Part shown: in pieces, positions 5,353 through 50,678 of the stretch
Numbering within the stretch: the first letter of the stretch is position 1
Layout: each line of letters opens with the position of its first letter
Assembly: GCA_024684085.1 (NCBI GenBank)
Contig: JAIKXM010000002.1
Location: forward strand, 1 to 52,125
From: Lachnospiraceae bacterium
Lineage (GTDB): Bacteria > Bacillota > Clostridia > Lachnospirales > Lachnospiraceae
Length of the DNA stretch: 52,125 bases
Reading direction: 5' to 3'
Made by a program: the position numbers and the translations under genes
Notes under the pieces: model-generated
The model's input: only the letters and a program-made list of their open reading frames with translations
The model's database searches: none
What the model was told of the DNA's origin: nothing

Positions 5353-5650
5353 ACCGAAGGAGCACTATTGCTATATGGTCCGTTGCTCCGATGGCACACT
5401 CTATACAGGGTACACCAACGATTATAAGAGCAGACTTGCCAAGCACAACAGCGGTCGTGGTGCCAAATATACCGCCACGCGCAAGCCTGTAACTCTTGTC
5501 TTCCTTCAGCGTTTCGATACCAAGGAAGATGCCATGCGCCGTGAATATGAGATCAAGCATAGATTAAGCAAAAAAGACAAAGAAGCCCTTATCTCTTCTC
5601 CTCTTAATCTGATCGATCGGATAGCCGCAATCCGGCCAAACGAAGAGTAA
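5336..5650 (+). CDS. GIY-YIG nuclease superfamily protein (YhbQ-like)
   Basis: The chosen ATG at 5336 gives 104 residues, the normal size for small YhbQ-like GIY-YIG proteins. A CGGAG sits about ten bases upstream, inside the end of the DUF436 gene. The GIY-YIG motif appears as CYMVRCSDGTLYTGYTND, followed by the conserved arginine (KSRLAKHNSGRGAKYT) and the glutamate region (AMRREYEIKHRLSKKDK). Related proteins cleave or bind branched DNA; some are implicated in repair. A longer reading frame begins at 5255 but would only add a tail read through the neighbouring gene. A strong hairpin follows at 5679. Confidence 0.88.
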   Translation: MTQDAKPKEHYCYMVRCSDGTLYTGYTNDYKSRLAKHNSGRGAKYTATRKPVTLVFLQRFDTKEDAMRREYEIKHRLSKKDKEALISSPLNLIDRIAAIRPNEE

Positions 5651-5678
5651 TTAATATGCCGACAAGGCGCGCATATAC

Positions 5679-5719
5679 AAGAATCGGAATAAAGCTTTTA
5701 AGGCCTTATTCCGATTCTT
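5679..5719. terminator. Strong hairpin between convergent genes
   Basis: Perfect 14-base arms AAGAATCGGAATAA and TTATTCCGATTCTT with a 13-base loop, between the GIY-YIG gene and the 3' end of the GGDEF/EAL gene. Position and symmetry suggest a two-way transcription stop, although neither side has a long T run. Confidence 0.6.
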
Positions 5720-5747
5720 ATATTATTCACTGTTTAACTGTTACTGC

Positions 5748-34252: not shown

Positions 34253-36178
34253 TTATACTCCCGTCTCACGGATAAGCCTGTCGTATACTTCAGTCAGAGT
34301 CTGTATCATCTTGGATGCCAGTGTGTAAGCATTCTGATATTTGATAAGGTTAACCGCTTCATCGTCATTATCAACACCGGAGATGGATATTCTCTGATTG
34401 TCGATAGACTTGCCAATGTTGGTATAATTCTCGCAGAAGGTATTGGCGTTCTTGCCGTTAAGAGCCACATCCGATAAGATACAGGTCAGGAACTCCTGAG
34501 TGGCAGCGCCACGATAGCTTGCTATATTCTTGTCGCTTACCATGTTGATCAGTCTGCCTATATTATCATATTCATCGGTTCCTGCTGCCCTGTCTGCCTT
34601 GGTAGCAAGAAGATCCGCATTATCTATCATGGAAGTCAGCGCCGCGAAGTTACGGGCTGTAAGTCTGTAATAACTGTCATCCTCCATATTAATGGTCTCT
34701 GCCAGTCTGTTACCGTTCGCATCCTTGGTATTGTACCTGCTCGTGAACTGGTACTGTTCCCTGTCCGTAGCGTGATCGCCTGTGAACAGAAGGCATCCGG
34801 GATTGCCGTCCTTGGTATAACCTTCCATCAATATATCATTAAAAGCTGCGGAGAAGATACGTACCCATTCATTGAGCTGCTGCTGATAGTAAGGAACTCC
34901 CTGATATGAAAGAGCATATCCGATCTCGCACTCTTTTCCGACTTTATTATCAGTAAGCGGCATGCCGGAATCCGTCTCATCAATAGTCAGTGTGTAGGTA
35001 CATACACCGTCTGCACTATATGAGTAACTCCAGCTGTCGTAATAGTATTCCTGATTGGCTAAGGTTATCTTACCGCCTGTATCGGAAAGTGTCGTCTTAT
35101 TAAGATCCATCAGATAGTCTTCATACACCTGAATGGTAACTTCTCTGAGATAATGGCCTTCCGAATCTCTCTGACTGTCGCCTGACACTGAGATTATCTC
35201 CCCTCTGAAGTTCTCTGCGTTATTACCGTCACGCATCTGTATAAGACCTTCAAGTTCTCCTCCGAGACTCTTGTTATATAAGTTGAACTCATCGCCCAAA
35301 GCGCCTGTATTGGTATTGACTACCCAATATACATCATACAGACCGCTTACATCCGACTGATTGACCTTTTCTTTGTCAGCTCTTGCAACACATGCAAGAC
35401 TGTTATAATCATCGGTATCTACCAGTATCTGTCCTCCGGCGATCGTTACGATGAAGTTGAAGGCTCCCGTCTCTCTGCTCGGATCATTGGGATCTGTAAT
35501 AGGAAATTCCTTGGCACTGATCTCAACGATGGCAGACAACTGATCGAGAAGAAGTGTTCTCTTATCTCTAAGCTCGTTAGCCTTGCTGCCTGACAATTCT
35601 ATAACATTGATCTGCTTATTGATGGTAGCGATCTCACTTGCAAGTGAATTGATCTCATCTATCTTAAGCTTGATCTCGGAATTGACATCTTCCTGAACCT
35701 GATCCATGGAATTGGCCATTGAGTTGAAGTACTCACACAGGTTAGCTGCAAATCCCATGAACTGTGCCTTTGTGGAATCGCTGGAAGGATTCTTCTTAAC
35801 CTCTGCAAGTGAATCCATCATCTCCTGGAATACGGTATTGAAACCTTCGATCGTGGAATCATCTCTGAAGTAATCCTCGATCTGTGTCATATAATACTGC
35901 TTCATACTGTATTCACCGGTCTTGGTATTGTTATGCCAGTACTTGGCATCATAAAAGTCATCATGTATACGTTCGATCGAGATGGTCTCAACACCTGCGC
36001 CGGCACAACCGTATCTCGTCCATACTCTTAAGGCTTCGGCCGCCTCGGAATTAACCTGCTGACGGCTGTAACCTTCCGTCTCCGCATTGGCGATATTATT
36101 GGCGGTAGTATTTAGTGCCGCATCGGCATTAAGTAAACCTTTATATGCTATATTCAGTCCTAAGAATTGCGACGGCAT
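34253..36178 (-). CDS. flgK: Hook-associated protein FlgK, second paralogue
   Basis: 641 residues from the ATG at 36178 with AAAGGTGG before it; a GTG two codons upstream is possible. MPSQFLGLNIAYKGLLNADAALNTTANNIANAETEGYSRQQV is a flagellar rod/hook N-terminal motif, and the C-terminal KYQNAYTLASKMIQTLTEVYDRLIRETGV closes the D0 domain. It differs from the neighbouring FlgK in the middle, with a larger variable region. Two adjacent flgK-like genes suggest a divided or duplicated junction structure. Confidence 0.85.
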   Translation of the reverse strand: MPSQFLGLNIAYKGLLNADAALNTTANNIANAETEGYSRQQVNSEAAEALRVWTRYGCAGAGVETISIERIHDDFYDAKYWHNNTKTGEYSMKQYYMTQIEDYFRDDSTIEGFNTVFQEMMDSLAEVKKNPSSDSTKAQFMGFAANLCEYFNSMANSMDQVQEDVNSEIKLKIDEINSLASEIATINKQINVIELSGSKANELRDKRTLLLDQLSAIVEISAKEFPITDPNDPSRETGAFNFIVTIAGGQILVDTDDYNSLACVARADKEKVNQSDVSGLYDVYWVVNTNTGALGDEFNLYNKSLGGELEGLIQMRDGNNAENFRGEIISVSGDSQRDSEGHYLREVTIQVYEDYLMDLNKTTLSDTGGKITLANQEYYYDSWSYSYSADGVCTYTLTIDETDSGMPLTDNKVGKECEIGYALSYQGVPYYQQQLNEWVRIFSAAFNDILMEGYTKDGNPGCLLFTGDHATDREQYQFTSRYNTKDANGNRLAETINMEDDSYYRLTARNFAALTSMIDNADLLATKADRAAGTDEYDNIGRLINMVSDKNIASYRGAATQEFLTCILSDVALNGKNANTFCENYTNIGKSIDNQRISISGVDNDDEAVNLIKYQNAYTLASKMIQTLTEVYDRLIRETGV

Positions 36179-36265
36179 ATCCACACCACCTTTCTGTTAT
36201 TCTGCAGTATTCAGTTCCCGGGCAACCGGTCACAGAATATATTACTTCCCTTCATTAACGAACTG

Positions 36266-37975
36266 TTACATTCCTAAAGTATTGATGATATGTTCAAGCA
36301 TCTCGCTGACAACATTGATATATCTTGATGAAGCATTGTATGCATTCTGAAAACGTATCATCATCGTAAGTTCTTCGTCCTGGGATACTCCGATGATCTG
36401 CTCTCTTGCAGAATCCGTAGCTCCCACTGTTTTATCCTGACTGTCAAGAATTGACTTATATACGTAACCTGAATTGGCTACCTGACTTACAAGATCGCTG
36501 TAGTAATCTATGTAAGATGACTTCTTCTTAACATTGGGATTAAGGGTCGAATCCTCCGCTTCGAAGGCATCCTTGATCTTCTCCATCGTCGTGTAATCAA
36601 CCGAGCCGTCAGCCGTTACGAACCCTAACTTGGTAGGCTGCTGTAAGAGCTTGGCATTGATCTGCATATTGGTAACGGTATAAAGGGTCTCATTGATATC
36701 CTGATCTTCCGCAATATAGTCAACCGTATAAGTATAAGTTCCGTCCGCATTGGCTGTAAGGACCGGTGATGCACCGTATCCGTCGGAAGCTATCTTCTGG
36801 AATATCTGGATGGGATTGCCGCTCTCATCCAGCAGATAAGTACTCGAAGGATTAAGTTCCTTGGCTGCTATTGCGGTCTCGCTTATGATATTGTTGATGG
36901 TCGTTGCTATATTATGAACCAGCTGATCGAATTCGGACTGGATATTCATACATACCGACTGCGATACCTGATTGGTATAATTCTCTTCCAGAAGATCCGT
37001 GAAGTTGGCCTTATGATCGCCTCTTGCCAGCAATACCGACTTAAGTGATCCTATATCGGTATTAAGGTCGGAAGATATAACTCTTGACATATCGAAGACT
37101 TCCGCCTTCTTAGCCTCTTCCTGACTGAATATCTTATTATGATTCTCATCATATCCGTACTTGGCGTTCTTCTCCCAGAAAGGTGTAACAAAACCTGTCT
37201 TGGGATCTTCATAGGTAAGCATCTTATATGCGATCTCACCTCTTACAAGATCTTCGCCTTCAAGCTGAACCCAGACCGTATTATCAAGGTCTTCCGAATA
37301 GCTTATATTGGCAAGTCCGGCAAGTTCATCGAGCAATGCATTACGCTGATCTCTTAAGTCATTGGCCTGCTCAATTCCGCTACATTCAATATTACGGATC
37401 TGGTCGTTAAGTGTCTTAAGACTGTCAGCGATCTTATTGATCCTGTCAACGTTGTCGATAACAGTTACATTAAGACTCTTCTGATAATCAGAAATACCGT
37501 CGTATACGGAATTAGCTCTGGCAAGGAACTCCGAACATCTCTCTACGAAGAGGCCCTGTGTAACGGCGCTGGCGGGATCCTTGGCAAGTTCCTGAACGGA
37601 CACCCAGAGATCGTTGATAGATTCCTGGAATGATTCACCGTTCATCTCGTCAAGAAGGTATTCTATTTCAGTAAGAGCATCCGAAGATATATTGTAGAAT
37701 CCCTGACGTCCGACTTCGCGTCTGTAGGTATCATCCAGGAATGTATCTCTTACCTGTCTCGTCTTGGAATAAACAACACCAAGACCTATTTGTTGCTTAG
37801 CAACAGCCCTGGTGTCTGATTGAAGTGTATTATACACCGAAGTTCCGGTAAGAATCTGCTGACGTGTATATCCGGTCGTATCGGCATTAGATACGTTATG
37901 TGCAGTTGTATTGAGAGAGTTCTGACTTGTCTGCAAGCCCGAAACACCAATGTAAAAACTTCCCATTAACGGCAT
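36266..37975 (-). CDS. flgK: Hook-associated protein FlgK, first paralogue
   Basis: 569 residues, the usual FlgK size. N-terminus MPLMGSFYIGVSGLQTSQNSLNTTAHNVSNADTTGYTRQQ is the classic FlgK/hook motif (with NxSNADTxGYxRQ), and the C-terminal RFQNAYNASSRYINVVSEMLEHIINTLGM matches. It makes the first hook-filament junction ring. GAGG lies nine bases before the ATG. It follows flgN by 27 bases, the chaperone and its client being encoded together. Confidence 0.95.
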   Translation of the reverse strand: MPLMGSFYIGVSGLQTSQNSLNTTAHNVSNADTTGYTRQQILTGTSVYNTLQSDTRAVAKQQIGLGVVYSKTRQVRDTFLDDTYRREVGRQGFYNISSDALTEIEYLLDEMNGESFQESINDLWVSVQELAKDPASAVTQGLFVERCSEFLARANSVYDGISDYQKSLNVTVIDNVDRINKIADSLKTLNDQIRNIECSGIEQANDLRDQRNALLDELAGLANISYSEDLDNTVWVQLEGEDLVRGEIAYKMLTYEDPKTGFVTPFWEKNAKYGYDENHNKIFSQEEAKKAEVFDMSRVISSDLNTDIGSLKSVLLARGDHKANFTDLLEENYTNQVSQSVCMNIQSEFDQLVHNIATTINNIISETAIAAKELNPSSTYLLDESGNPIQIFQKIASDGYGASPVLTANADGTYTYTVDYIAEDQDINETLYTVTNMQINAKLLQQPTKLGFVTADGSVDYTTMEKIKDAFEAEDSTLNPNVKKKSSYIDYYSDLVSQVANSGYVYKSILDSQDKTVGATDSAREQIIGVSQDEELTMMIRFQNAYNASSRYINVVSEMLEHIINTLGM

Positions 37976-38536: not shown

Positions 38537-38812
38537 TTAAATAGCGCTGTAACCGGCGATGAGCTTGTCTGCCAGGCTCTCGCTGTCTACACTGTAATTT
38601 CCACTGTTGATACGGTTCCTGATTGACTCTACCAGATTCTCTCTGATATCGGGGGCTGCATTAACAGCCTTCTTGGCAATCTGGATATCCTTACCTGCAT
38701 TGGAGATCTGCAGCTGATCAGAGAAGCTTCCCTTTACGTCCGTTTTCATCTGACGTGTGGTGTTGTTCTGTGCGTATATCTGTTGCACCTGATTATATGC
38801 TTCTATTCGCAT
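38537..38812 (-). CDS. flgM: Anti-sigma-28 factor FlgM
   Basis: 91 residues, standard for FlgM. The disordered N-terminal half is followed by the sigma-binding C-terminus RENLVESIRNRINSGNYSVDSESLADKLIAGYSAI, a textbook FlgM pattern (RxxKVxxIKxxIxxGxYxVDxxxVAxKMI). FlgM holds sigma-28 inactive until hook completion, then is secreted. GAAGGAGGAG precedes the ATG. A sigma-28 promoter drives its own operon, a feedback loop. Confidence 0.95.
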   Translation of the reverse strand: MRIEAYNQVQQIYAQNNTTRQMKTDVKGSFSDQLQISNAGKDIQIAKKAVNAAPDIRENLVESIRNRINSGNYSVDSESLADKLIAGYSAI

Positions 38813-39079: not shown

Positions 39080-41761
39080 CTACTGATTATACGGATTCTT
39101 CTTAAAATAGGTTACGGCAAATGAACCGACACCTACCATACCGCTCACGGACACCGAAGACCGGTGTACATACAATCGATCCGACTGGATATAATGCGTC
39201 ATCTCCTGTTTGATCTCTTCAACCTGTCTTGCATTAAGTCCGGAATAATTATATATGATAGGCCTGTCAGTATCTATCGCGCTCTTATGCCACATGTTGC
39301 GTTTGATATGCTTGCGGATCGCATTATCCGTATCCGTCTCGAAGCCAAGCGTCATATGGATCTTATTACGTCCTATATGAACCGAAGGTCTTACATGCAT
39401 ATAGCCGAGTAACCTTCCGACCAAAGGTCCCATCGAACCTATTCTCTGGAAATACGCCGTTGAAGGGATGACCGCATTCATATCCACATAATACTTAAGA
39501 CCATTGATCATCTCGATGATCTCGTCCGCGCTCTTACCTTCGCCTGCCATCTCAACCGCAGCCAGTACAAGTATGCCGATACCGCCGGATACATTGTTAC
39601 TGTCAATAACACTTACATGATCGAATCCTTCGGCAGCCTTCATCGCATTGGAGTAACATGATCCGAAACGGCTTCCCGTTGCTATATGAATTATCTCCTC
39701 CGCCTCATCCAGACCGTTACCGAAGAACTGCTCATATTCATCAATGCTCGCCGATTCGGGCACTATCTCGCCCTTCTGAACATATTCCGCGATATTGGAA
39801 GAATAATTGATCTCAAGCGAATCAACGAACTTGCCCCTTGCGGTTCTAACATAGATATCCATCACCCTTATACCCAGACTCTCAATAAGCGATGTGGGCA
39901 GATCGGAAGTTCTGTCCGTTGTGATAAGTATGGAACGTTTCCTCTCTTTTGCAAAAGAGGGGACCACTCCCTTCATGGATTCCGTCATCTCCTCAGACTT
40001 GTAGCTGACCAACTCATCCGGAAGATATTCGACCATAAGTCTGTCTAACATCTTGGCCTCTACGGGTTTCTGGAGTGTATTGTCGAAACCGCCCGAAGCT
40101 CCCTTTAGCATATCACTGTTTATTGACAGTCCTGTCAGTGCGATAATGACCGCATTGTTACTCATACCGCCCTTCTGATTGCGGATCTCCTTAAGCAATT
40201 CCGCTCCGTTCATACCGGGCATAATATAATCGGTAAATATAATATCGTACGATGTCTCTCTTGTAAGCTGGAGAGCCGTCTTACCGTCAGTTGCCTCATC
40301 TACGGTCATCTTGCTCGGCTCAAGCAGTTTCTGTATGATACGCCTGTTGATCTCATCGTCATCGATGACCAGTATGCGGGCTCTCGGAGCCTCGAAGGTC
40401 TTCTGATAAGCCTCAACTTCGTCATCTTTTTCAATGAAGTCTTCCGTATCACCGATGAGTTCTTCACCGACATAGCCCTGATCCAGAATGACGGTGAAGG
40501 TACTTCCCTTGGTATATATACTGTCGACCGTTATCTCACCGCCCATAAGACTTACGAGCTCTCTGGTGATGGCAAGTCCGAGTCCGTTACCTTCGATCTT
40601 ACTGTTGATATTACGATCGAACTGACGGTAACTGTCGAAGAGACTGCCGATATTCTCTTTCTTGATACCTATACCGGTATCTGTTACGGTGATCTTAAGC
40701 TTGACCTTATTGGCTGTTTTCTCAAGGGCATAGACCTCGAGGCGGACCATACCTTCGGGAGTATACTTAACACCGTTGGTCAGAAGGTTAAGTACTATCT
40801 GTATCAGTCTTCGTTCGTCACCTATCATTGTTGCCGGAAGCGACGGATCGACCATGGCTTCAAGTTTAAGCTTCTTCTCCTCCGCACGTGATTTGATAAG
40901 ACCTAAGATCTCCTTAAAGAGCTCCCTCGTATTATACTCATTATTGACCAGTTCCATACTGTTGTTACTGATCTGAGAGAGATCCATGATATCATTAACG
41001 AGATTCAGCAGGAGCTTGGCTGAACGCTTGATAGTCATCGAATTAACGAGCGTCTCGGGCTCACAGCTGTCTCTTAAGATTATCTCATTAAGACCTACCA
41101 TCGCATTGATGGGGTTCCTTATCTCATGGCTGAAGTTCGCATAAAAGCGTTCTCTTGAATGTGCAAGTTCCTCAAGTCTCTCCTCATTCTCATCACTTTT
41201 ACGCTTCTGATATTCGAACAGCTTGTACTGGAAGATAAAGAGGAAGCCTGCGGTGATACCGACAACCGTAACAGCGAATACATTGTCAAGATACAAGGTT
41301 CCTTCCCTGACTCCTCTTGCTAAAAGCGTGGGATAATGGAATGCCACATAGTAGCAGGTCACATCAATGATCGTATTGAAGATCACGAAGAACCGGAGTG
41401 CTTTGCCGTCATACATAAGGAATATATAATACATTCCCATCGCGAACCATATGCCCATTCCGCCTTCGACTCCGCCTGATGCGAAGAATATGCTTGGAAG
41501 CGCAATAAGGATCAAACCCACACCGACTATATTGATAGCCAGGTTAACGGCCTTGTTCCTGATCACCATATACTGAGCCAGAGTAATAATGCCAAGTATC
41601 AACAATATGCAGATTATAACCGGTATACGGGTCGCTACTACGAGTTCCTCCAAAAGTGACGCTATTGTCACCACCTGCGCCTCAACACAGATTATTCTGA
41701 AGATCTTCTCCCGTATGCTCAGATCGTCGCTTGCGACCATTTTCTTCATATACTTCAGCAT
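39080..41761 (-). CDS. Membrane hybrid histidine kinase-receiver fused to a DegV domain
   Basis: 893 residues. Five to six membrane helices (about 25-185), a HisKA domain with His212 in NFSHEIRNPINAM, a HATPase_c domain (N-box near 326, DTGIGI near 361, GNGLGLAI near 391), a receiver (465-580) with phospho-acceptor Asp511 in FTDYIMPGMNG, and a C-terminal DegV-like domain (about 610-880: ITTDRTSDLP, then VPESASIDEY, VIDSNNVSGGIG, IGSMGPLVGRLLG). DegV proteins bind fatty acids and feed fatty-acid kinase; fused here, the domain may sense or buffer acyl chains. I know of no standard family with this order. AAGGAG precedes the ATG. Last gene of the signalling cluster. Confidence 0.85.
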   Translation of the reverse strand: MLKYMKKMVASDDLSIREKIFRIICVEAQVVTIASLLEELVVATRIPVIICILLILGIITLAQYMVIRNKAVNLAINIVGVGLILIALPSIFFASGGVEGGMGIWFAMGMYYIFLMYDGKALRFFVIFNTIIDVTCYYVAFHYPTLLARGVREGTLYLDNVFAVTVVGITAGFLFIFQYKLFEYQKRKSDENEERLEELAHSRERFYANFSHEIRNPINAMVGLNEIILRDSCEPETLVNSMTIKRSAKLLLNLVNDIMDLSQISNNSMELVNNEYNTRELFKEILGLIKSRAEEKKLKLEAMVDPSLPATMIGDERRLIQIVLNLLTNGVKYTPEGMVRLEVYALEKTANKVKLKITVTDTGIGIKKENIGSLFDSYRQFDRNINSKIEGNGLGLAITRELVSLMGGEITVDSIYTKGSTFTVILDQGYVGEELIGDTEDFIEKDDEVEAYQKTFEAPRARILVIDDDEINRRIIQKLLEPSKMTVDEATDGKTALQLTRETSYDIIFTDYIMPGMNGAELLKEIRNQKGGMSNNAVIIALTGLSINSDMLKGASGGFDNTLQKPVEAKMLDRLMVEYLPDELVSYKSEEMTESMKGVVPSFAKERKRSILITTDRTSDLPTSLIESLGIRVMDIYVRTARGKFVDSLEINYSSNIAEYVQKGEIVPESASIDEYEQFFGNGLDEAEEIIHIATGSRFGSCYSNAMKAAEGFDHVSVIDSNNVSGGIGILVLAAVEMAGEGKSADEIIEMINGLKYYVDMNAVIPSTAYFQRIGSMGPLVGRLLGYMHVRPSVHIGRNKIHMTLGFETDTDNAIRKHIKRNMWHKSAIDTDRPIIYNYSGLNARQVEEIKQEMTHYIQSDRLYVHRSSVSVSGMVGVGSFAVTYFKKNPYNQ

Positions 41762-41859: not shown

Positions 41860-44586
41860 CTAACGCCATTTGTTCTTATCCCTGATCTCATTAAGCGCTT
41901 CGGATGCGGACATGAAATCCGACATCTCAACCTTCTTACGTATACTTCCAAGCTGTTTCTTGAGATTGATGCCGTTATAGCTGCACTGCTCCAGCTTATC
42001 GAGTATAACATTCATATTGTCTGCTTCGAAGGTGAATGCCGCCTCTTCGAACTCCTTAACGGCTTCAGCGAATTCATCTTCCGAAAGAGGTAACAGGGTG
42101 TCATCCGGTTCTTCTTCAGCGCCATCGCCCGGCGCGATAACAGAGTTGGACTGAAGCATCTCAAGTACTCTTCCGTACTCTTCCATCATCCTGTCATGGC
42201 CTGCCTTAATGAACTCTATATCCCCGCTCTTACCCGCCAGTTCAAGACCCTTGGCGAGATTAGAGAGATTGATCGCACCTATGCTCATCATCGAACTCTT
42301 AAGTGCATGTACCTGAATGGTATAATTCTCCCAGTCTTCCTTCTCGAAGAGCATATTGATCTGAACTCTGTTCTCCTGTCCTCCGCTCCTGTGCATCTTG
42401 AGGATATCGAGATAATTGTCCCATGAACCGCAGTAAGCGATACCCTTATTGATATCCAGATCGCCGATCTTAACAGGACCGTTAGCCGACTCTCCTGTAT
42501 GAGAAGCTTTTCTCTCCTGATCGAAGATATACTTGATCTTCTTGCCGGGTATGAACTTCTTGAGTATCCTCTCAAGTCCGGATATCTCGATGGGCTTGGA
42601 CTGGAAGTCATCAAATCCTTCCTTAATGAACATCTCACGCATACCGGCAACCGCATTGGCGGTAAGTGCCACGATCGGGACATTTTTGTAATAGATATTG
42701 TCCATGGCTCTGATGCGATGGAAACACTCAACGCCATCCATCTCCGGCATCATATGATCCATGAATACAAAGTCATAATCCTTGCTCGTTATCTTCTTAA
42801 GCGCTTCGGAACCGCTTGATGCGGTGGTCACTCTTACCTGATAAGGCTGTAAGAGTCCCTGAAGCACCTTAACATTCATGTAGCTGTCATCGACCACCAG
42901 GATATGTGCACCGGGTGCGATGAACTTGCCGAGCTTATGGGTAGACAGGCTGTGTCCGACCAAACGGCTGTTGATCGCATTCACAACAGGCACAACGTAG
43001 AGAGGTCTGTATATCGAGATGATGGCATTATTAGTGATACCCATCTCTTCGCCGTAAGATATGGCGACGAATACACTCGTCTCATTGGTAAGACTGTCGA
43101 AGTATTCCTTCTCTTCCTGATACTCCCTGTAACCCGTGAATACCCAGTATCTGCTGTCCTGTTCAAGCCTTCGCTTCACTTCGTCGATCGAAGAAGCCAC
43201 ATAAGACTTGGTATCTATCTTCGGTCCTATCGAGATGAAGTTATTCCTTACCTCTTCTGCCATCATCTTATTGGCAAAAAAGCTGTCATTCACGTACATG
43301 AGGAGCCTGTAACCTTCCGTATCGGGCTTATATACAATGGGCTCTTCTTCGACAACTGCCTGCGGGATGACGAACTGAATCTCCGATCCTTTTCCATATT
43401 CGGAGTTAACTGTTATGAAGCCTCCCATCAGCTCGATGATAGCCTGTGCGATGGAGAGTCCGAGTCCGACACCATTCTCCTGACGGTTACGCTGGCTGTT
43501 AAGCTGAGTGAATCCCGAGAATATCCTTCCGATACTCTCCTGCTTCATTCCGATACCGGTATCCTTGACGGTAACGCAGAGATTGATACCGTATTCCTCA
43601 ACTCTGTAATCCACGATAAGCTTGATATAGCCTTCAGTAGTGAACTTGATGGCATTATCCACAAGACTCATGATGACTCGTCTTATCTTCTGCTCATCGC
43701 CCCTTAATCCCGACGGTATATCGATGTTACAATCAACATAGAAACCGATATTCTTGTCCATTGCCTTAGGCAGATTGAGATTGATGACATCATTGATGGT
43801 CGATGTGATATTATAGGTATCCTCCACCAGCTCGATCTTGCCCATCTGCAATTCGGAGAAGTCGAGGATATCTGTAACGACCGACAGCAGATTCTTGCCG
43901 GCCGACTGGATATTGATGAGATTCTCTCTTGTCTCGGGCTCGAAACTGTCACGAAGGGCGATCTCACTTATACCGCAGATGGTATTGATAGGTGTCCTTA
44001 ACTCATGCGAAACATTGGCAAGGAAATCATCCTTACTACGCTGCGTCAGTTTCAGCTCTTCGATGGTCTCAAGAAGTCCTATCTTATTATTCTGTTCCTC
44101 ACCCACAAGGAAGTAGACAACATAGATAGTCAGGTAGATCGCAAGTATATTCATGATCAGCTGTAAGACATCACCCGTGTCATCTATGGGGATAGTCTTA
44201 CCGATGAACAGATGGTATACATAGAGGATGACGGTTCCGATACCGGGCAATATCAGCAGTCTCGGCATCTCAAGAAGTCCTATAAGGATGATCAGCACCA
44301 CGAAGCTTACCAGAATATCCTGAATATGCTTCGCCTCTATGCCAAAGAAGACCATACTGATCTCCATCAGCATGCCCATCAGCACACTCCGCACCTGAAA
44401 AGTACCGATCTTAAACAGGAGGAATATCCACATCGTCACAAGAAATGCATGAATGGGATATTGGATCCACAACTTCCCATGGTTGTATTCTATGACACAG
44501 GTGCAAATGGCATATACCGAAAAGACCGTAAGGATCAGATATTCAATTCTTCTCTGTCTTATTCTGTCGTAATCTTTATTGCTCAT
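41860..44586 (-). CDS. Hybrid histidine kinase with two receivers and HPt
   Basis: 908 residues. Five to six membrane helices within 1-165, HisKA with His194 in NVSHELRTPINTI, HATPase_c (DTGIGM, GVGLGLSIAQ), a divergent receiver-like region without a clear phospho-Asp (about 430-550), a canonical receiver with Asp in FMDHMMPEMDG, and an HPt domain with the acceptor His in VHALKSSMMSIGA. The acidic C-terminus (LSEDEFAEAVKEFEEAAF) may be a further helical docking domain. It can carry a full phosphorelay from His to Asp to His. Its start overlaps the CheA-like gene by 11 bases, so they are coupled. Confidence 0.85.
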   Translation of the reverse strand: MSNKDYDRIRQRRIEYLILTVFSVYAICTCVIEYNHGKLWIQYPIHAFLVTMWIFLLFKIGTFQVRSVLMGMLMEISMVFFGIEAKHIQDILVSFVVLIILIGLLEMPRLLILPGIGTVILYVYHLFIGKTIPIDDTGDVLQLIMNILAIYLTIYVVYFLVGEEQNNKIGLLETIEELKLTQRSKDDFLANVSHELRTPINTICGISEIALRDSFEPETRENLINIQSAGKNLLSVVTDILDFSELQMGKIELVEDTYNITSTINDVINLNLPKAMDKNIGFYVDCNIDIPSGLRGDEQKIRRVIMSLVDNAIKFTTEGYIKLIVDYRVEEYGINLCVTVKDTGIGMKQESIGRIFSGFTQLNSQRNRQENGVGLGLSIAQAIIELMGGFITVNSEYGKGSEIQFVIPQAVVEEEPIVYKPDTEGYRLLMYVNDSFFANKMMAEEVRNNFISIGPKIDTKSYVASSIDEVKRRLEQDSRYWVFTGYREYQEEKEYFDSLTNETSVFVAISYGEEMGITNNAIISIYRPLYVVPVVNAINSRLVGHSLSTHKLGKFIAPGAHILVVDDSYMNVKVLQGLLQPYQVRVTTASSGSEALKKITSKDYDFVFMDHMMPEMDGVECFHRIRAMDNIYYKNVPIVALTANAVAGMREMFIKEGFDDFQSKPIEISGLERILKKFIPGKKIKYIFDQERKASHTGESANGPVKIGDLDINKGIAYCGSWDNYLDILKMHRSGGQENRVQINMLFEKEDWENYTIQVHALKSSMMSIGAINLSNLAKGLELAGKSGDIEFIKAGHDRMMEEYGRVLEMLQSNSVIAPGDGAEEEPDDTLLPLSEDEFAEAVKEFEEAAFTFEADNMNVILDKLEQCSYNGINLKKQLGSIRKKVEMSDFMSASEALNEIRDKNKWR

Positions 44587-46285
44587 CGATCGATCTCCGT
44601 TTGTCGTTATCGCCGCTCAAAGGTATGACCATCCACATCGTCGTACCCTTGCCCAGTTCACTCTCTATCCTGAGGCTTCCGCCTATCTCGGCAAGATTGT
44701 GTACCACTACATCCATACCGACACCTCTGCCGGAGTATTCCGTAACCTCTTCATTGGTTGAGAATCCGGGAAGAGTGACCAGCATATACGCTTCCTCATC
44801 GGAATATTCTCTGCCGGCAGCTTCACTCTCTATAAGCCCCTTCTCAAGAGCCTTCTTAAGGATTGCTTCACGATCAAGGCCTCTTCCGTCGTCAGCCACG
44901 CAGATATACAGGCTGTCATCTCTGTCCTCGGCCGAGAGGATGACCGTCCCCTTTGGATCTTTGCCTGCCGCGATCCTCTCATTGGCAGGTTCTATACCGT
45001 GATCCACACAGTTACGCAGCATATGCATGAGTGGATCCGATATATGCTCTATGATATTCTTGTCAACTTCTATATCCTCGCCCTGTATCACAAGTTCCGC
45101 TTCCCTGTGAAGCTTCCTTGTAACATCGAAGATGACCCTGTTCATCTTAAGGAAGAGTCCCGTCAGAGGCACCATCCTCATGCGGATCACCACATCGAGC
45201 ATGGCATTGTAAGTCTCCCGCACTTTTTTAACAGAGCTGCATATGTCGTCGCCCGATTCTACTCTGCCGCGGATCAGCCCGATCAGCTCTTCTTCCACCG
45301 TACCTAACTGTCCGCATATATCCATAAGCGCATTCATCTTATTCACTTCAACGCTTATATAAGAAGTCCTCTCCATCCTGATGGGCTTGTCGGATATATG
45401 TCCTCGCTCATTGCCGGATCTGGTATTGGGAATGACATAATCGCCGGGCGAGAACCTGGCAGTCGCAAGACCTTCTCTCACTCCCGCGAACTCGTCCGCC
45501 CTTATTTTCTCTATGGTTACCGACTCAACTTCATAAGAGCTGTCGTTAATGGTCTTCTCTATCTTCTCGACATCGGCCGTAGCCCTTAGATATATCCTAA
45601 AGCCTTCGGAGAGTATCGTTGCCGCCGTCGACTCATCAGAGATGATATTCTCCGGAATATATCTCATATCCTCGGCTATGACCCTGAGCGCATATATAGC
45701 CTTATACGCATATACATTCGCCATCTTGGTATCTGCCTTGAACTTAACATCTATCCTGTAAAAAGAGCCCGAAGCTGACTTGACGGGAGCAATATAGAAT
45801 CTCGCAGGTGCATTACTGACACTTGTGTCACTTTTCTTTTCTGCTGCATTATCCGTCTCTTCATTACCCTTACAAACAGATTTAACCGAATTAAGATAAG
45901 CATCCAGCTCTTCCACAAGCCTTACGGCTCTGCCGTCTGCCTCTCTTCCTTCGGTCAGTTTATCCATCTCACTCTTGATATAATCAAGCGCATCCATCAC
46001 ATGCGAAGCAAGCTCCTCAGTGTCCAGGGATGTTATATGAGATTCCCTTATATAATAAAAAATATCTTCAAGTCGATGAGATACCTCGGTTATTCCGTCC
46101 AGCATCATCATCCCCGAAGATCCCTTAATGGTATGCATGGCGCGAAAAATCTCATTGACCGTATCAGGGTCAAAGCTTTTACTGTCCTTATTCTCGAGAA
46201 CCAGCTCCTGAATACGCTCTACCAGACGGCTGTTCTCATAGATATACATATCCAGCATACCTTCAGTATTGAATTGTGATCCCAT
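44576..46285 (-). CDS. CheA-type histidine kinase without CheW-like domain
   Basis: 569 residues. P1 HPt domain with His51 in AMHTIKGSSGMM; a linker or P2-like region (about 150-290); the P3 dimerisation helices (MNALMDICGQLGTVEEELIG); the P4 ATPase with HMLRNCVDHGIE, DDGRGLDREAIL and GRGVGMDVV. Typical CheA is about 650-700 residues and ends in a CheW-like P5 domain that couples it to receptors; here the protein stops right after P4 (TTMWMVIPLS). Without P5 it is unlikely to sit in a chemoreceptor array, so it may act in the local phosphorelay. AAGGAGGGG precedes the ATG. Confidence 0.88.
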   Translation of the reverse strand: MGSQFNTEGMLDMYIYENSRLVERIQELVLENKDSKSFDPDTVNEIFRAMHTIKGSSGMMMLDGITEVSHRLEDIFYYIRESHITSLDTEELASHVMDALDYIKSEMDKLTEGREADGRAVRLVEELDAYLNSVKSVCKGNEETDNAAEKKSDTSVSNAPARFYIAPVKSASGSFYRIDVKFKADTKMANVYAYKAIYALRVIAEDMRYIPENIISDESTAATILSEGFRIYLRATADVEKIEKTINDSSYEVESVTIEKIRADEFAGVREGLATARFSPGDYVIPNTRSGNERGHISDKPIRMERTSYISVEVNKMNALMDICGQLGTVEEELIGLIRGRVESGDDICSSVKKVRETYNAMLDVVIRMRMVPLTGLFLKMNRVIFDVTRKLHREAELVIQGEDIEVDKNIIEHISDPLMHMLRNCVDHGIEPANERIAAGKDPKGTVILSAEDRDDSLYICVADDGRGLDREAILKKALEKGLIESEAAGREYSDEEAYMLVTLPGFSTNEEVTEYSGRGVGMDVVVHNLAEIGGSLRIESELGKGTTMWMVIPLSGDNDKRRSIDEQ

Positions 46286-46421: not shown

Positions 46422-46820
46422 TCAGTCTTCGATAAGCCCAAGCTTGGTAAGAGCTTCTTCGAACTTCTCCTTGTTGATCGGCTTGGCGGAATAAATGGTA
46501 CAGCCGAGATCAAAGGCCATCTTAACATTTTTCTCATCATTAAGCGCCGTTGCAATTATGATCTTCGATGCTTTATCATCCGTGATCCCTTTCTCCTTCT
46601 CCAGATTACGTATTCCGATAAGTGCCTGATATCCGTCCATGACCGGCATCATGATATCAAGACATACCAGATCGTAGGGATCATTCTCTTCCAATGCCAT
46701 CATGAAGGCATCAACGGCCTCCATACCGTCGACCGTGACATCGCAATCACCATACTTGGATAAGAAGTTCATCATGAACTTCCTGGTGACAAAATCATCC
46801 TCAGCCAATAATATTCTCAT
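46422..46820 (-). CDS. Free-standing CheY-like receiver
   Basis: 132 residues from the ATG at 46820, with GAGGAGG upstream (a longer frame begins at 46841). Acidic pocket LLAEDD, phospho-Asp55 in LVCLDIMMPVMDG, conserved Thr/Ala and Lys in SAKPINKE, so it is phosphorylatable. No output domain. Position next to CheB and CheA suggests it receives phosphate from the CheA-like kinase, possibly standing in for the receiver that the CheB protein lacks. Confidence 0.9.
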   Translation of the reverse strand: MRILLAEDDFVTRKFMMNFLSKYGDCDVTVDGMEAVDAFMMALEENDPYDLVCLDIMMPVMDGYQALIGIRNLEKEKGITDDKASKIIIATALNDEKNVKMAFDLGCTIYSAKPINKEKFEEALTKLGLIED

Positions 46821-46988
46821 TTTCTCCTCCTCTGTAAACATAAGTCCGTCTCTGACTTAATGTTGTCGGATGTCCGTTTTTGTAATCCCGCTTATAACGC
46901 ACAACTGCAAAACCGGTTCCTAATACTACTCCCTGATCATAACCTCTACACTTTTAATCCCCATTTTCACAACCGATATCATTAACTG

Positions 46989-47585
46989 TTATATTGACGA
47001 CATGATCTTCCCCGGAATATCCTTCAGACTCAACTGATATTGAACCGCTCCCACTTCATAAGCCACCCTCGGCATTCCGTATACTATACAGCTATCCTCG
47101 TCCTGACCTATCGTAAGGGCTCCTCTCTGTCTCATCTTCAGAAGTTCTCTCGCTCCGTCAGATCCCATTCCGGTAAGGATCACTCCTATAGCCTGATCTC
47201 CCGCTTCATTGGCCACCGAATCAAACAGTGCTCCTACCGAAGGTCTGTGTCCGTTCACGCGTTCATCTTCCTTGATCTCAACCACAAATCCATGTGAGTC
47301 CTTCCTGATACGCATCTGACAGTCGCCACCCGGGGCAAGTAATGCAAGACCCGGAGTAACACGGTCACCGTTGACGGCCTCCCTCACTTCAAAAACGCAC
47401 TGATCATCCAGTCTCTTGGCGAACAATCCCGTAAAGCCCTCAGGCATATGCTGTACCATAACTATCCCCGGGATATCTCTTCCCAATCCCTTAAGGACTT
47501 CAAGGATGGCATCGGTCCCTCCTGTGGATGCACCGATGGCTATTATTCTATTATTCAGACTGACATCATTATTCTTGAATGGCAT
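46989..47585 (-). CDS. CheB-type methylesterase lacking a receiver domain
   Basis: 198 residues from the ATG at 47585, which has GGAG nine bases upstream; a longer frame starts at 47615. The catalytic triad is seen: Ser20 in IGASTGG, His in VQHMPEGF (near 50), Asp in LTGMGSDGA. CheB usually has an N-terminal receiver; only the esterase half is present. It would demethylate receptor glutamates, but no receptor, CheR or CheW gene lies in this window. The adjacent single receiver (46422) could be its detached partner; this is inference. Confidence 0.88.
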   Translation of the reverse strand: MPFKNNDVSLNNRIIAIGASTGGTDAILEVLKGLGRDIPGIVMVQHMPEGFTGLFAKRLDDQCVFEVREAVNGDRVTPGLALLAPGGDCQMRIRKDSHGFVVEIKEDERVNGHRPSVGALFDSVANEAGDQAIGVILTGMGSDGARELLKMRQRGALTIGQDEDSCIVYGMPRVAYEVGAVQYQLSLKDIPGKIMSSI

Positions 47586-47670
47586 ATTATTACGCTCCAA
47601 ATCCATCCGCAGCATTCTGCCTTTGTATCTCCCCCATCTTCACTTCCAATCATGACAACTGCACCATAAG

Positions 47671-48780
47671 TCAATGTAACTGCCTGTATATCTTACAGCA
47701 TATATCGAATATCACCGGATTGAACTTGACTCCGCATTCGGCCTTGAGCATATCCAATGCTTCCTCTCTTGTATAAGAGACCCTGTATGCTCTGTCTGCC
47801 GTAAGTGCACAATACATGCTAACGAAGGCCACTATCTGGGCAGAGAGAGGGATCTGATCGCCCATTTTTTTATCAGGATAACCTGTTCCATCCCAGTTCT
47901 CATGATGATAATGCGCTATATCGACAGCCATTCTGACGAAATCATTATAATCCTGAGATAAAGCTATATCGGTGAGTATCTTGGCACCGATAGTGGTATG
48001 CGTCTCAATGACTCTCCGCTCGCCGTCGCTTATGGGTTCCGGCTTCTGCAATATCTCCTTGGCTATGGCAACATTGCCGATATCACATAACGGAGCCGCC
48101 ATCTCTATGGTCTCCACAAAAGTATCGTCTATTATTCCCACATAGGACTCAGCGATCTGAAGCGCCTGCGCCACCATCTTGCAATTATACTGAAGCCTGT
48201 CAATATACTTATCCTCATAGAGAGAATTATTACGTGCCAGATTCACAAGAGCATAGAGAATGGTCTTCTTCTCACTCTCTATCTGCTTAAGCTGATTGCC
48301 CAGCGACAACTGCAATCTCGTATTGGTCTCCTGAAGGCTTTTTCTCGTCTCATGGAACTTCAGCTGAACCCCTACTCTTGCCTTGACCACTTCAGGGATA
48401 AACGGCTTGGTGATATAATCTTCACCGCCTATCTCAAAGCCCTTGATTATATCATCCACCTCATCAAAAGCAGATATGAAGATAATGGGAATATCCCTGG
48501 TATTAACATCACTCTTGATTATGCCTGCGAACTCAAAACCATCCATCTCCGGCATTGACACATCTGTCATTATCAGATTGGGAAGAGTACGCTGAAGTAT
48601 CTTCAATGCCTGAACACCGTTCTCGGCAAGTATCGGCTGATATCCCATATCTGCGATGATGTTACGCAGAACGAATCTGTTGACCTCCACATCATCTATG
48701 ATAAGCACTCTCCCGACGTTGGGAATGCTCGTATTCTCTGCCGGATTGTTATCCGCGCCATTAACAATAATATCTTCCAT
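47671..48780 (-). CDS. Response regulator with degenerate HD-GYP domain
   Basis: 369 residues: receiver (25-140) with Asp73 in IMTDVSMPEMDG, a helical linker, then an HD-GYP domain. The second part is intact (HTTIG at 261-265 and HHENWDGTGYP at 292-302), but the HD pair reads CDIGN (232-236) instead of HDIGK, and the preceding histidine region reads KYIDR. Thus at least one metal ligand is replaced and cyclic-di-GMP hydrolysis is doubtful; a regulatory or binding role is more likely. AGGAG precedes the ATG. It follows the PAS kinase gene by 86 bases. Confidence 0.85.
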   Translation of the reverse strand: MEDIIVNGADNNPAENTSIPNVGRVLIIDDVEVNRFVLRNIIADMGYQPILAENGVQALKILQRTLPNLIMTDVSMPEMDGFEFAGIIKSDVNTRDIPIIFISAFDEVDDIIKGFEIGGEDYITKPFIPEVVKARVGVQLKFHETRKSLQETNTRLQLSLGNQLKQIESEKKTILYALVNLARNNSLYEDKYIDRLQYNCKMVAQALQIAESYVGIIDDTFVETIEMAAPLCDIGNVAIAKEILQKPEPISDGERRVIETHTTIGAKILTDIALSQDYNDFVRMAVDIAHYHHENWDGTGYPDKKMGDQIPLSAQIVAFVSMYCALTADRAYRVSYTREEALDMLKAECGVKFNPVIFDICCKIYRQLH

Positions 48781-48826: not shown

Positions 48827-48960
48827 ATCTATAAGGGTGCCAAACACTGCCACCTTCTCGATAGACTTAGGGATGTTCTCCTTCCGAACAGCCATCTATA
48901 AGGGCATCAAGCGCCGCCGCCTCCTCGATAGCCTTAAGGGAGTTTTCCTTCTGAACGGCC
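48827..48960. repeat. 67-bp tandem duplication at the 3' end of the PAS kinase gene
   Basis: The block from 48894 to 48960 (kinase end) is repeated at 48827-48893, with about 52 of 67 positions identical by eye. Since 67 is not a multiple of three, the copy is out of frame and the kinase frame ends after only nine codons in it (GCSEGEHP). Confidence 0.75.
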
Positions 48961-50309
48961 ATTTTAAGCTTCAGCACCTGCACCTTGACTTCATGCGGCG
49001 CACCGTCAGTCAGCTGTTTGATCGCATCCGCGTAAGCCTCCGCCTTGTCCCATGTCGACATATCGATACACAGATTAAGCTTGACCAGACGCTTATGGAT
49101 CTCGGCCCGATTCTCCTCAGAACCGAAGCGCCTTGCTATCTCGGCCTCTTTATCGAACTCTGACAGGCTCTTGAAATACGGGAGATACTGACCCGCATTC
49201 GCAGCCGTAACACTGACACCGCCCGGCAGATCAAGCCAGATCGAGAAGTTGAACATCGTCCCCTTACCAAGTTCACTCTCTACCGAAATGGCTCCGCCCA
49301 TCAGTTCCACCAACTGTTTGCTGATGCATAACCCAAGCCCTGTTCCGCCATATCGCCTTGAGATCGAAGCATCCACCTGTGAAAAACTCTTGAACAGGTG
49401 ATCCTGATCCTTCTTATCTATACCAATGCCTGTATCGACCACCATGAAGAACAGCTCAATACGTCCGTTAACAGTCTTCGTCGTAATGGCTTCCAGCATT
49501 ATCTTACCGACCGAGGTGAACTTCGTGGCATTGGATAAGAGATTATTGAGGATCTGTGCAACTCTCAATTCATCTCCCACGAGCACCTCCGGAATATCCG
49601 GCGAAATCGATATGAACAGATTAAGGCCTTTCTCCTGTATCTTATTGATATGATTGGATCTGACATATTCGATCATATCCCTGAAGGAGAACTCTCTTCT
49701 CTCAAGCTGGAACTTACCCGCCTCAAGCTTGGAGAAATCGAGGATATTATTAATGAGAGAATGCATATCTGTGCATCCTCTCTCAATAAGTCTTAAGGTC
49801 TTGATCATATCCTGATCTTTGGTCATCATGAGCAATTCCTGAGTATTGCCCTGAATACCGTTAACAGGAGTCCTCAGTTCATGAGTCACATTAGCCACGA
49901 ACTCGCTCTTCATCCTGTCAACATCAGTAGTATTGTTCTTCAGTCTGTTCAGTTCTTTTTCAATGGCATCATACCCGGACACATCATTGACCAGACAGAT
50001 ATATATTCCGTGAGGATCCATTGCGAATCTGCCCCTCACCTTGAAGCATGTCTGATTCTTACGATATGCCATCAGTGTCACTTCTTCATTGCCACGTTCA
50101 ATATTCAGTTCGCACTTATCCTTGGAATTGCTGAAATAAGCAGGGAAGATCACGCCTATATTGAGATCTGTGCAGTTCTCATATCCGAGACTTACAAGGG
50201 CAGATCTGTTGGCATACAACACCTTGCCGACCGTATCAAAATAGATAATGATCTCATTAGCCGCTTCGGCCAGTACCCTGGTATCCTTATCTAATTCGAA
50301 TATATCCAT
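48867..50309 (-). CDS. PAS-domain histidine kinase
   Basis: 480 residues, no membrane segment. PAS domain (about 10-115), HisKA with His143 in NVTHELRTPVNGI, HATPase_c with ATP-binding motifs (DTGIGI, RYGGTGLGLCISK), and a C-terminal helical segment (about 380-470). It is cytoplasmic and should sense an internal signal. It has no receiver of its own, so it probably hands phosphate to neighbouring receivers. The start ATG directly follows the HPt gene's stop, so the two are coupled. Its 3' end sits on a 67-bp tandem duplication. Confidence 0.88.
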   Translation of the reverse strand: MDIFELDKDTRVLAEAANEIIIYFDTVGKVLYANRSALVSLGYENCTDLNIGVIFPAYFSNSKDKCELNIERGNEEVTLMAYRKNQTCFKVRGRFAMDPHGIYICLVNDVSGYDAIEKELNRLKNNTTDVDRMKSEFVANVTHELRTPVNGIQGNTQELLMMTKDQDMIKTLRLIERGCTDMHSLINNILDFSKLEAGKFQLERREFSFRDMIEYVRSNHINKIQEKGLNLFISISPDIPEVLVGDELRVAQILNNLLSNATKFTSVGKIMLEAITTKTVNGRIELFFMVVDTGIGIDKKDQDHLFKSFSQVDASISRRYGGTGLGLCISKQLVELMGGAISVESELGKGTMFNFSIWLDLPGGVSVTAANAGQYLPYFKSLSEFDKEAEIARRFGSEENRAEIHKRLVKLNLCIDMSTWDKAEAYADAIKQLTDGAPHEVKVQVLKLKMAVQKENSLKAIEEAAALDALIDGCSEGEHP

Positions 50310-50678
50310 TTACAGCTCCCTGATGAGGTCTACATATTCCTTGTTAACTTCCGACAGATTCTCTATCAACGCATTAACCTTCTCAATATCGAGCTCGTCA
50401 TATGCCTTGTCGCGCAACTGTTCAGCCAGCTGTGTTGTCACACCTGCCACAACATTAAGACCTAAATTGATAGCAAGTCCCTTCATATTATGCGCAGCGA
50501 CAAAAGCCGACTCAGCATCCCGGTCGGCAATTGAAGTTCTGATCTCTTCAAAACTGTTATCCTCTGCATATGTCTTGAGGAAGTTAATATACATATCCTC
50601 CATATCAAGGAAACGATGAAGCGCTCCGCCGTAATCAACACCTTTTTTAACTAATTCATCTTTAATATTAATGTCCAT
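50310..50678 (-). CDS. Stand-alone HPt phosphotransfer protein
   Basis: 122 residues. The HPt motif is AHNMKGLAINLGL with His63 as acceptor, in a four-helix bundle typical of HPt proteins. It could shuttle phosphoryl groups between the hybrid kinases and the free receivers of the cluster. It is the first gene of the cluster; AGGAG precedes the ATG and the stop abuts the next start. Confidence 0.88.
   Translation of the reverse strand: MDINIKDELVKKGVDYGGALHRFLDMEDMYINFLKTYAEDNSFEEIRTSIADRDAESAFVAAHNMKGLAINLGLNVVAGVTTQLAEQLRDKAYDELDIEKVNALIENLSEVNKEYVDLIREL

Follow-up and report, generated by a model that had tools for sequence, protein, structure and literature searches.

A DegV domain fused to a hybrid histidine kinase with a constant partner kinase in a Lachnospiraceae bacterium

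A hybrid histidine kinase that ends in a DegV domain

We analyzed a 52,125-nucleotide stretch of DNA from a Lachnospiraceae bacterium (assembly GCA_024684085.1, contig JAIKXM010000002.1, positions 1 to 52,125 of the forward strand; hereafter, the window). An open reading frame of 893 amino acids with an ATG start, at 39080-41761 on the minus strand, encodes a hybrid histidine kinase (HK) that carries a DegV domain behind its receiver (REC). We refer to it as kinase B; its parts are as follows.

39080..41761, minus strand: kinase B, hybrid histidine kinase of the order HK-REC-DegV, 893 amino acids (open reading frame, Pfam, relatives)
41192..41761, minus strand: N-terminal membrane region of B, residues 1-190 (hydropathy; no Pfam match)
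40964..41155, minus strand: HisKA of B, phospho-acceptor H212 (Pfam; H212 invariant in 35 rows)
40481..40822, minus strand: HATPase_c of B (Pfam)
40046..40375, minus strand: receiver of B, D511 (Pfam; D511 invariant in 35 rows)
39101..39931, minus strand: DegV domain of B, residues 611-887 (Pfam, NCBIfam, residue mapping)

An earlier reading of the bare sequence, which we call the original prediction, had described a membrane region followed by HisKA, HATPase, receiver and DegV domains, and Pfam bore out this order with every domain over its cut-off: HisKA at residues 203-266 (50.1 bits, cut-off 26.9), HATPase_c at 314-427 (91.5 bits, cut-off 26.4), Response_reg at 463-572 (82.7 bits, cut-off 30.2) and DegV (PF02645) at 611-887 (94.9 bits, cut-off 27), the last at full length (model positions 2-279 of 280). 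The C-terminal part is thus DegV by profile, as had been proposed, and it also scored 101.1 bits against the NCBIfam model TIGR00762, just over the cut-off of 99.7, and matched the solved DegV proteins 2dt8 (E 5.2e-15) and 4x9x (E 2.8e-14). The three peptides by which the domain had been recognized (ITTDRTSDLP, VIDSNNVSGG and GSMGPLVGR) are all present in the translation. The kinase residues H212, N325, N329, G363, G365 and D511 were invariant in alignment A4 (35 rows including the window), H212 and D511 being the phosphorylation sites that the prediction had named. Kinase B is therefore a genuine HK-REC-DegV fusion with intact hybrid-kinase residues. The membrane region at the N-terminus has no match in Pfam. 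Simple hydropathy scanning gave four segments for B and six for one relative.

The fusion recurs in the family and is rare outside it

Relatives of B that reach query residue 885 or beyond were found in 15 of the 20 genomes of the genus. Across the family, DegV lay within open frames of at least 700 amino acids in at least 46 of 299 genomes among the matches listed, a count based on rows with such a frame, with at most eight candidates scored per genome and some of the loci fetched. We searched outside the family with a profile built from 15 fused DegV domains, using samples of the order, class and phylum that partly overlap. Among the matches listed, the order sample (295 genomes) held the fusion in one genome outside the family (G545) and the class sample (391 genomes) in three genomes of one genus (G886, G645 and G719), while none outside the family came from the phylum sample (398 genomes, matches at E 1e-75 or below). 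The fusion is thus recurrent in the family and rare outside it, and some genomes carry the module in several copies. Profile scores overlap between fused (266-419 bits) and stand-alone (up to 270 bits) domains, and it is the open frame that separates the two.

A contig scan returned 12 loci, and the residues listed as matched do not extend into the DegV domain in any of them (furthest residue 633). When plasmids were searched by tblastn with a fused DegV domain as the query, 21 records were returned; among the 15 listed, the best identity was 28.8%, and the matched regions were annotated DegV proteins or unannotated stretches. We found no published histidine kinase-DegV fusion among the matches listed in the open-licence PubMed Central (PMC) literature, although automatic annotations may exist, and the hits that we checked for DegV concern ordinary degV genes. 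This agrees with the original prediction, which had not recognized the domain order from standard two-component families.

Two side observations came from the same profile searches. Stand-alone DegV proteins outside the family (loci L109-L131) scored 210-270 bits against the fused-domain profile, compared with 67-113 bits for those of the window's own genome; the former are possibly nearer to the ancestor. DegV matches also fell in open frames of 580-601 amino acids in two genomes of the order sample (G431, G489) and three of the class sample (G622, G700, G745), which could be fusions or tandem arrangements.

A second hybrid kinase lies directly upstream of the fusion

In the window, B is preceded at a distance of 98 bases by a second hybrid kinase, kinase A, which ends in a histidine phosphotransfer (Hpt) domain.

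41860..44586, minus strand: kinase A, HK-REC-Hpt, 908 amino acids (Pfam, relatives)
42223..42396, minus strand: Hpt of A, H760 (Pfam, 19.9 bits, below the cut-off of 24.6)

We fetched 60 stretches around fusions in two rounds (40 and 20); two of them (L142, L143) duplicate L067 and L068, leaving 58 loci with 59 fusion genes. An A-type gene (HK-REC-Hpt or HK-REC) lies directly upstream of B in 58 of these 59 distinct fusions and in the window. In the first 40 loci, all 41 fusion genes directly follow an A relative, with gaps of -100 to 46 bases. The same held for 17 of the 18 further distinct fusions, a number that includes L145 (partner cut by the contig start), L139 (partner split) and L137 (B in pieces); L148, the only fusion with no visible partner, stands where its contig ends. 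As a control, a second A- or B-like gene was present in none of eight stretches around DegV-less hybrid kinases of the genus (L156-L163), a mixed set of which three score closer to B and five closer to A. Catalytic residues are invariant in the aligned rows of both A and B.

As a separate observation on A, its residues ~430-555, between HATPase and receiver, gave no Pfam match; kinases of the ShkA type have a pseudo-receiver at that place.

Nearly every pair carries one Hpt domain, and the two kinases vary together

The Hpt histidine of A, H760, is conserved in all 32 partners that were aligned (alignment A3, from which the partners of L061, L084 and L092 are absent). Twelve fusions are longer, at 1114-1162 amino acids, and carry an Hpt after DegV. 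Its HALKSS motif was invariant in the six that were aligned, and Pfam found Hpt in both of those scanned, one of them just under the cut-off. The 11 visible partners of these Hpt-carrying fusions are short (676-699 amino acids), with no Hpt seen. In the window and 45 fetched pairs, A alone carries the Hpt, and in 11 pairs B alone does, so that 57 of 58 resolvable pairs, the window included, have one Hpt per pair, L137 being the exception; L098 (B cut by the contig end, Hpt on neither gene) and L148 (partner unseen) are not among the 58. In a tree of the HK-REC core, from which L098 was excluded, the 12 rows with Hpt on B lie on one side of a single branch (Shimodaira-Hasegawa-like approximate likelihood ratio test, SH-aLRT, 97). 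Relocation of Hpt without its loss is what one relay shared by the two kinases would lead one to expect.

The distance matrix of A correlated with that of B at r 0.80 over 55 pairs (L092, L137, L139, L145 and L148 were left out), and the best of 2000 permutations reached 0.116. Taken together, the gene pairing, Hpt distribution and co-variation indicate that A and B very probably form one relay.

The fused DegV domains lack key residues of a FakA client

We compared 60 fused DegV domains, that of the window included, with 24 stand-alone DegV proteins, a non-random set made up of five that the window's own genome encodes and 19 taken from L109-L131, the best-scoring loci of the order and class searches, after loci without a DegV frame under 450 amino acids had been dropped. 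A single branch split the fused from the stand-alone domains (SH-aLRT 100). The FakB1 positions used were Thr62, Arg173, Arg205, His270, Ser95, Ser171 and the lid residues (PMC8892158), and FakB1 numbers were placed by motif order and by the equal spacing of R173-P189-R205 (776-792-808 in B), not by structure. In FakB, Arg173 serves the kinase reaction, Arg205 serves FakA and membrane binding, and His270, like Thr62, contacts the fatty-acid carboxylate (PMC8892158, PMC9136124).

Each of the 24 stand-alone proteins has the equivalents of Arg173, Arg205 and His270, while no fused domain (0 of 60) had even two of them: 39 had none, 15 had Arg173 only and six had Arg205 only. At the His270 position, the fused domains never have His and 53 of 60 have Asn, compared with His in 24 of 24 stand-alone proteins. 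The Thr62 position, Thr in all 24 stand-alone proteins, is Thr in 11 and Ser in 29 of the 60 fused domains. In the window, the positions of T62, R173, R205 and H270 read P668, S776, E808 and M875. A further position, 869, is Ser in 58 of the 60. At the Ser95 position, whose placement is less sure, 35 of 60 fused domains have Ser or Thr and the window has Gly; the Ser171 column is Gly in 22 of 24 stand-alone proteins, so these two positions speak neither for nor against FakB.

The domain of B thus resembles the DegV/FakB family (PF02645, TIGR00762) in matching the profile over its whole length and above curated cut-offs, and differs in being fused to a hybrid kinase, in having none or one of Arg173, Arg205 and His270 across the fused set and in standing apart on the tree. 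It is maintained by selection. In the one pair with a synonymous rate (dS) below 1 (L064/L065), the ratio of nonsynonymous to synonymous substitution rates (dN/dS) of DegV was 0.084, which points to purifying selection on the domain, and the ratios for the other parts of B in this pair were 0.066 (kinase core), 0.074 (receiver) and 0.125 (membrane region).

The genome of the window also encodes five stand-alone DegV proteins and a FakA homologue (G000:C3:4220-4867); one of the five (G000:C3:1146-1988) shares the contig of the FakA homologue. The fusion is therefore additional to the Fak system. A canonical system is present separately, and we think it very improbable that the fused domain acts as a client of it. 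We rejected a FakA-client function on the residues (triad in 0 of 60 fused versus 24 of 24 stand-alone domains), and hold with high confidence, on sequence comparison, that the fused DegV domain does not serve FakA. The proposal that acyl chains, bound as in FakB, gate the phosphorelay was weakened by the same comparison, since the four FakB1 residues Thr62, Arg173, Arg205 and His270 are invariant in the 24 stand-alone proteins and changed in most fused domains.

Nevertheless, the domain could still be a FakB-like fatty-acid sensor that binds free membrane acyl chains and reports lipid state, a special case of the explanation developed below. Such a role would fit the full-length profile match and the family positions that a majority of fused domains keep (D620, D647, S725, P792, G809 and G877), as well as the Thr62 position, which is Ser or Thr in 40 of the 60. 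Another sensor kinase, SaeS, is moreover controlled by fatty acids (PMC5539427). The lid helix of FakB1 (Ala177, Trp180, Val181, Leu184 and Leu185), which enters the membrane (PMC8892158), speaks both ways. The Val181, Leu184 and Leu185 positions are largely hydrophobic in fused domains (98%, 70% and 100%, versus 42%, 100% and 100% in stand-alone proteins), but the Ala177 and Trp180 positions are hydrophobic in just 30% and 18%, versus 83% and 100%; the window has L780, R783, L784, Y787 and M788. With two of five positions lost, the lid does not decide on fatty-acid binding. Since the carboxylate-binding His has gone from every fused domain, both arginines are mostly lost and the window keeps none of T62, R173, R205 and H270, we consider a fatty-acid sensor of this kind unlikely, and a free fatty acid an improbable ligand to about the same degree.

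The loss of ligand residues would also suit a DegV domain that binds no ligand and acts as a protein-protein module joining A and B. The co-occurrence with A, together with the lack of a partner beside any of the eight DegV-less hybrid kinases examined, fits such a scaffold. However, a scaffold does not in itself account for the new residues that are almost fixed in and around the former ligand site (875 is Asn in 53 and 869 is Ser in 58 of the 60 domains), although an interface could, and we regard this role as improbable.

A permuted relative has DegV ahead of the membrane helices

DegV follows the receiver in 59 of 60 fusions, the window included, which is the usual place of an output domain. 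The domain might accordingly be an output switched by the receiver, for instance by taking up or letting go of a lipid or a protein partner on phosphorylation of D511. The remaining fusion, L098 (genome G258, 5431-8304), has its DegV domain at the N-terminus (residues 19-289), ahead of the membrane helices and far from the receiver; six hydrophobic segments, HisKA (511-576), HATPase (623-738) and receiver (773-886) follow before the contig ends. On the tree, its DegV domain falls within the fused set, and the kinase paired with it is a short one that lacks Hpt. That DegV can stand before the helices or after the receiver makes a regulatory input likelier than a receiver output, and the order in L098 fits a movable cytosolic input domain. 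A pure output role is further disfavored by the 12 fusions in which the Hpt after DegV makes DegV internal, and by the constant second kinase with Hpt, which favors a relay. We therefore give the output-domain reading little credence.

A two-kinase phosphorelay with DegV as a candidate ligand-binding domain

The explanation that we prefer, and which we judge to have an even chance of being right as a whole, is a two-kinase phosphorelay of A and B in which DegV is a ligand-binding regulatory domain. Phosphoryl groups from the HisKA domains of A and B would pass to the receivers and then to the one Hpt that the pair possesses, which would hand them on to separate response regulators, either a stand-alone receiver or a receiver with HD-GYP or GGDEF. 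DegV would be a cytosolic regulatory domain derived from a FakB-like fatty-acid binder and working outside Fak metabolism, and ligand binding to it would set the kinase/phosphatase balance of B. On its residues and positions, DegV in B probably serves in regulation and not as a carrier of fatty acids; that it is specifically a ligand-binding input could, by our estimate, equally well prove true or false. Going further, we suggest only tentatively, and with more doubt than belief, that the fused DegV domains are a new class of intracellular sensor for histidine kinases, in which a former fatty-acid carrier has become the receptor of another ligand and gates an obligate pair with one movable Hpt. 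On this reading the ligand would probably be uncharged and hydrophobic, given the change of His to Asn at the carboxylate site and the lost Fak arginines.

Several observations weigh against this explanation. The single arginines counted above show that the Arg173 equivalent is still present in 15 and the Arg205 equivalent in six of 60 fused domains. In L137 (5035-10169), Hpt was detected on neither gene and B is in two pieces, perhaps in a decaying pair, and most Hpt domains score close to or under the Pfam cut-off. The permutations leave the shared descent of the genomes in place, and genome kinship contributes to r; nearest neighbors of A and B agree in 38 of 55 cases (12 of 21 for pairs from the genus). 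A single-sequence AlphaFold model of the window's DegV domain reached a predicted local distance difference test (pLDDT) score of 41 and was not used as evidence. Finally, output is not uniform, since HD-GYP regulators stand near just 20 of 59 fusions (motif search, 5 kb upstream and 3 kb downstream), a count on which we rejected HD-GYP proteins as the universal output; other loci have a single receiver or a GGDEF regulator.

Known systems share parts of this arrangement. In the Che3 system of Rhodospirillum centenum, the hybrid kinases CheA3 and CheS3 work with CheY3, and phosphate flows between the kinases (PMC3868531). It is similar in that a Che-like cluster brings together a pair of hybrid kinases with a regulator of a single domain, and differs in that CheA3 is itself a hybrid, CheW genes are present and the organization described includes no DegV domain, while here both hybrids are of the HisKA type with one Hpt. 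The window has CheA and CheY genes; a CheW domain together with a methyl-accepting chemotaxis protein (MCP) gene occurs in L059 and L060. Caulobacter ShkA-ShpA-TacA likewise runs from a hybrid kinase over a phosphotransfer protein to a regulator, and an extra domain of the kinase senses an intracellular small molecule; unlike here, that sensor is a pseudo-receiver, which binds cyclic di-GMP (c-di-GMP), and the phosphotransferase is a separate protein (PMC7010744). In Staphylococcus aureus SaeRS, signaling by the sensor kinase is inhibited by fatty acids (PMC5539427), but FakB and SaeS are separate proteins and are not fused. Among NCBIfam models, BarA, TorS and ArcB score best for the HK-REC core of B, although B scores far below their curated cut-offs, and A has the order HK-REC-Hpt. 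We know of no kinase of the BarA, TorS or ArcB type with a DegV domain or with an obligate partner sharing one Hpt. Hybrid-kinase phosphorelays as such are known; what appears new is a previously unreported DegV domain within one, the obligate pairing and the movable Hpt.

If DegV is a sensor as proposed, this would be, as far as our literature searches show, the first signaling role of the DegV fold and a new way of feeding a cytosolic ligand into a phosphorelay, and paralogues within one genome would work in parallel, each with its own ligand or output. Recurrence across one large family, with multiple copies in some genomes, raises the prospect that the module is a main route by which these anaerobes sense an internal metabolite and set motility or c-di-GMP. 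The rule of one Hpt per pair and its single relocation offer a natural test of relay sharing by two kinases.

Flagellar and chemotaxis genes around the pair

By Pfam, the minus-strand order around the pair is Hpt, HK, REC-HD-GYP, CheB domain, CheY-like, CheA-like, A, B, FlgM and FlgN. Beyond FlgN and two FlgK-like genes lie genes for a flagellin-N protein, FliW, FlaG, FliD and FliS.

50310-50678, minus strand: Hpt protein (Pfam)
48867-50309, minus strand: HK (Pfam)
47671..48780, minus strand: REC-HD-GYP response regulator, HD pair reading CD, GYP motif kept (Pfam, motif)
46989-47615, minus strand: CheB domain (Pfam)
46422..46841, minus strand: single-domain response regulator, CheY-like (Pfam)
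44576..46285, minus strand: CheA-like kinase with Hpt, P2 and HATPase, no CheW match (Pfam)
38537..38812, minus strand: FlgM anti-sigma-28, first flagellar gene past B (open reading frame, Pfam)
34253-36184 and 36266-37975, minus strand: two FlgK-like genes, tandem and differing (read from translations)

The original prediction had placed the flgM operon 200 bases beyond B and linked the fusion to motility. The adjacency is real, with a gap of 267 bases rather than 200 (38812 versus 39080), and flgM adjoins B in the window and in eight relatives within the genus (L059-L066), which together form one clade of nine on the DegV tree. The link is too narrow to extend to the fusion in general, and with FlgM in 8 of 58 distinct loci only, we rejected it as a general feature. 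In the lineage of the window, where the relay stands beside CheA-like, CheY-like and HD-GYP genes directly before flgM, flagellar output or late flagellar gene expression would be the likely target.

In the response regulator at 47671-48780, the HD pair reads CD and the GYP motif is intact, as in the other flagellar loci read (L062, L064 and L066). The change makes enzyme activity doubtful, and the regulator may act by binding and not by catalysis.

CheA-like genes occur in 13 of the first 40 loci and in 14 of 58 overall, all within an 18-row clade that contains the window. Neither CheW nor H-kinase_dim was matched in the CheA-like protein of the window (44576-46285) or in those of L062, L063, L064 and L066; both are kept in L059, L060, L067 and L073. 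An MCP gene adjoins the CheA-like gene in L059 and L060, and in the window the CheA-like gene overlaps gene A with no MCP gene between them. The window's protein may be a CheA that has become detached from receptors and stands beside the kinase pair. The two FlgK-like genes have relatives in the same order in seven of the eight genus loci L059-L066; the stretch of L061 ends before the second.

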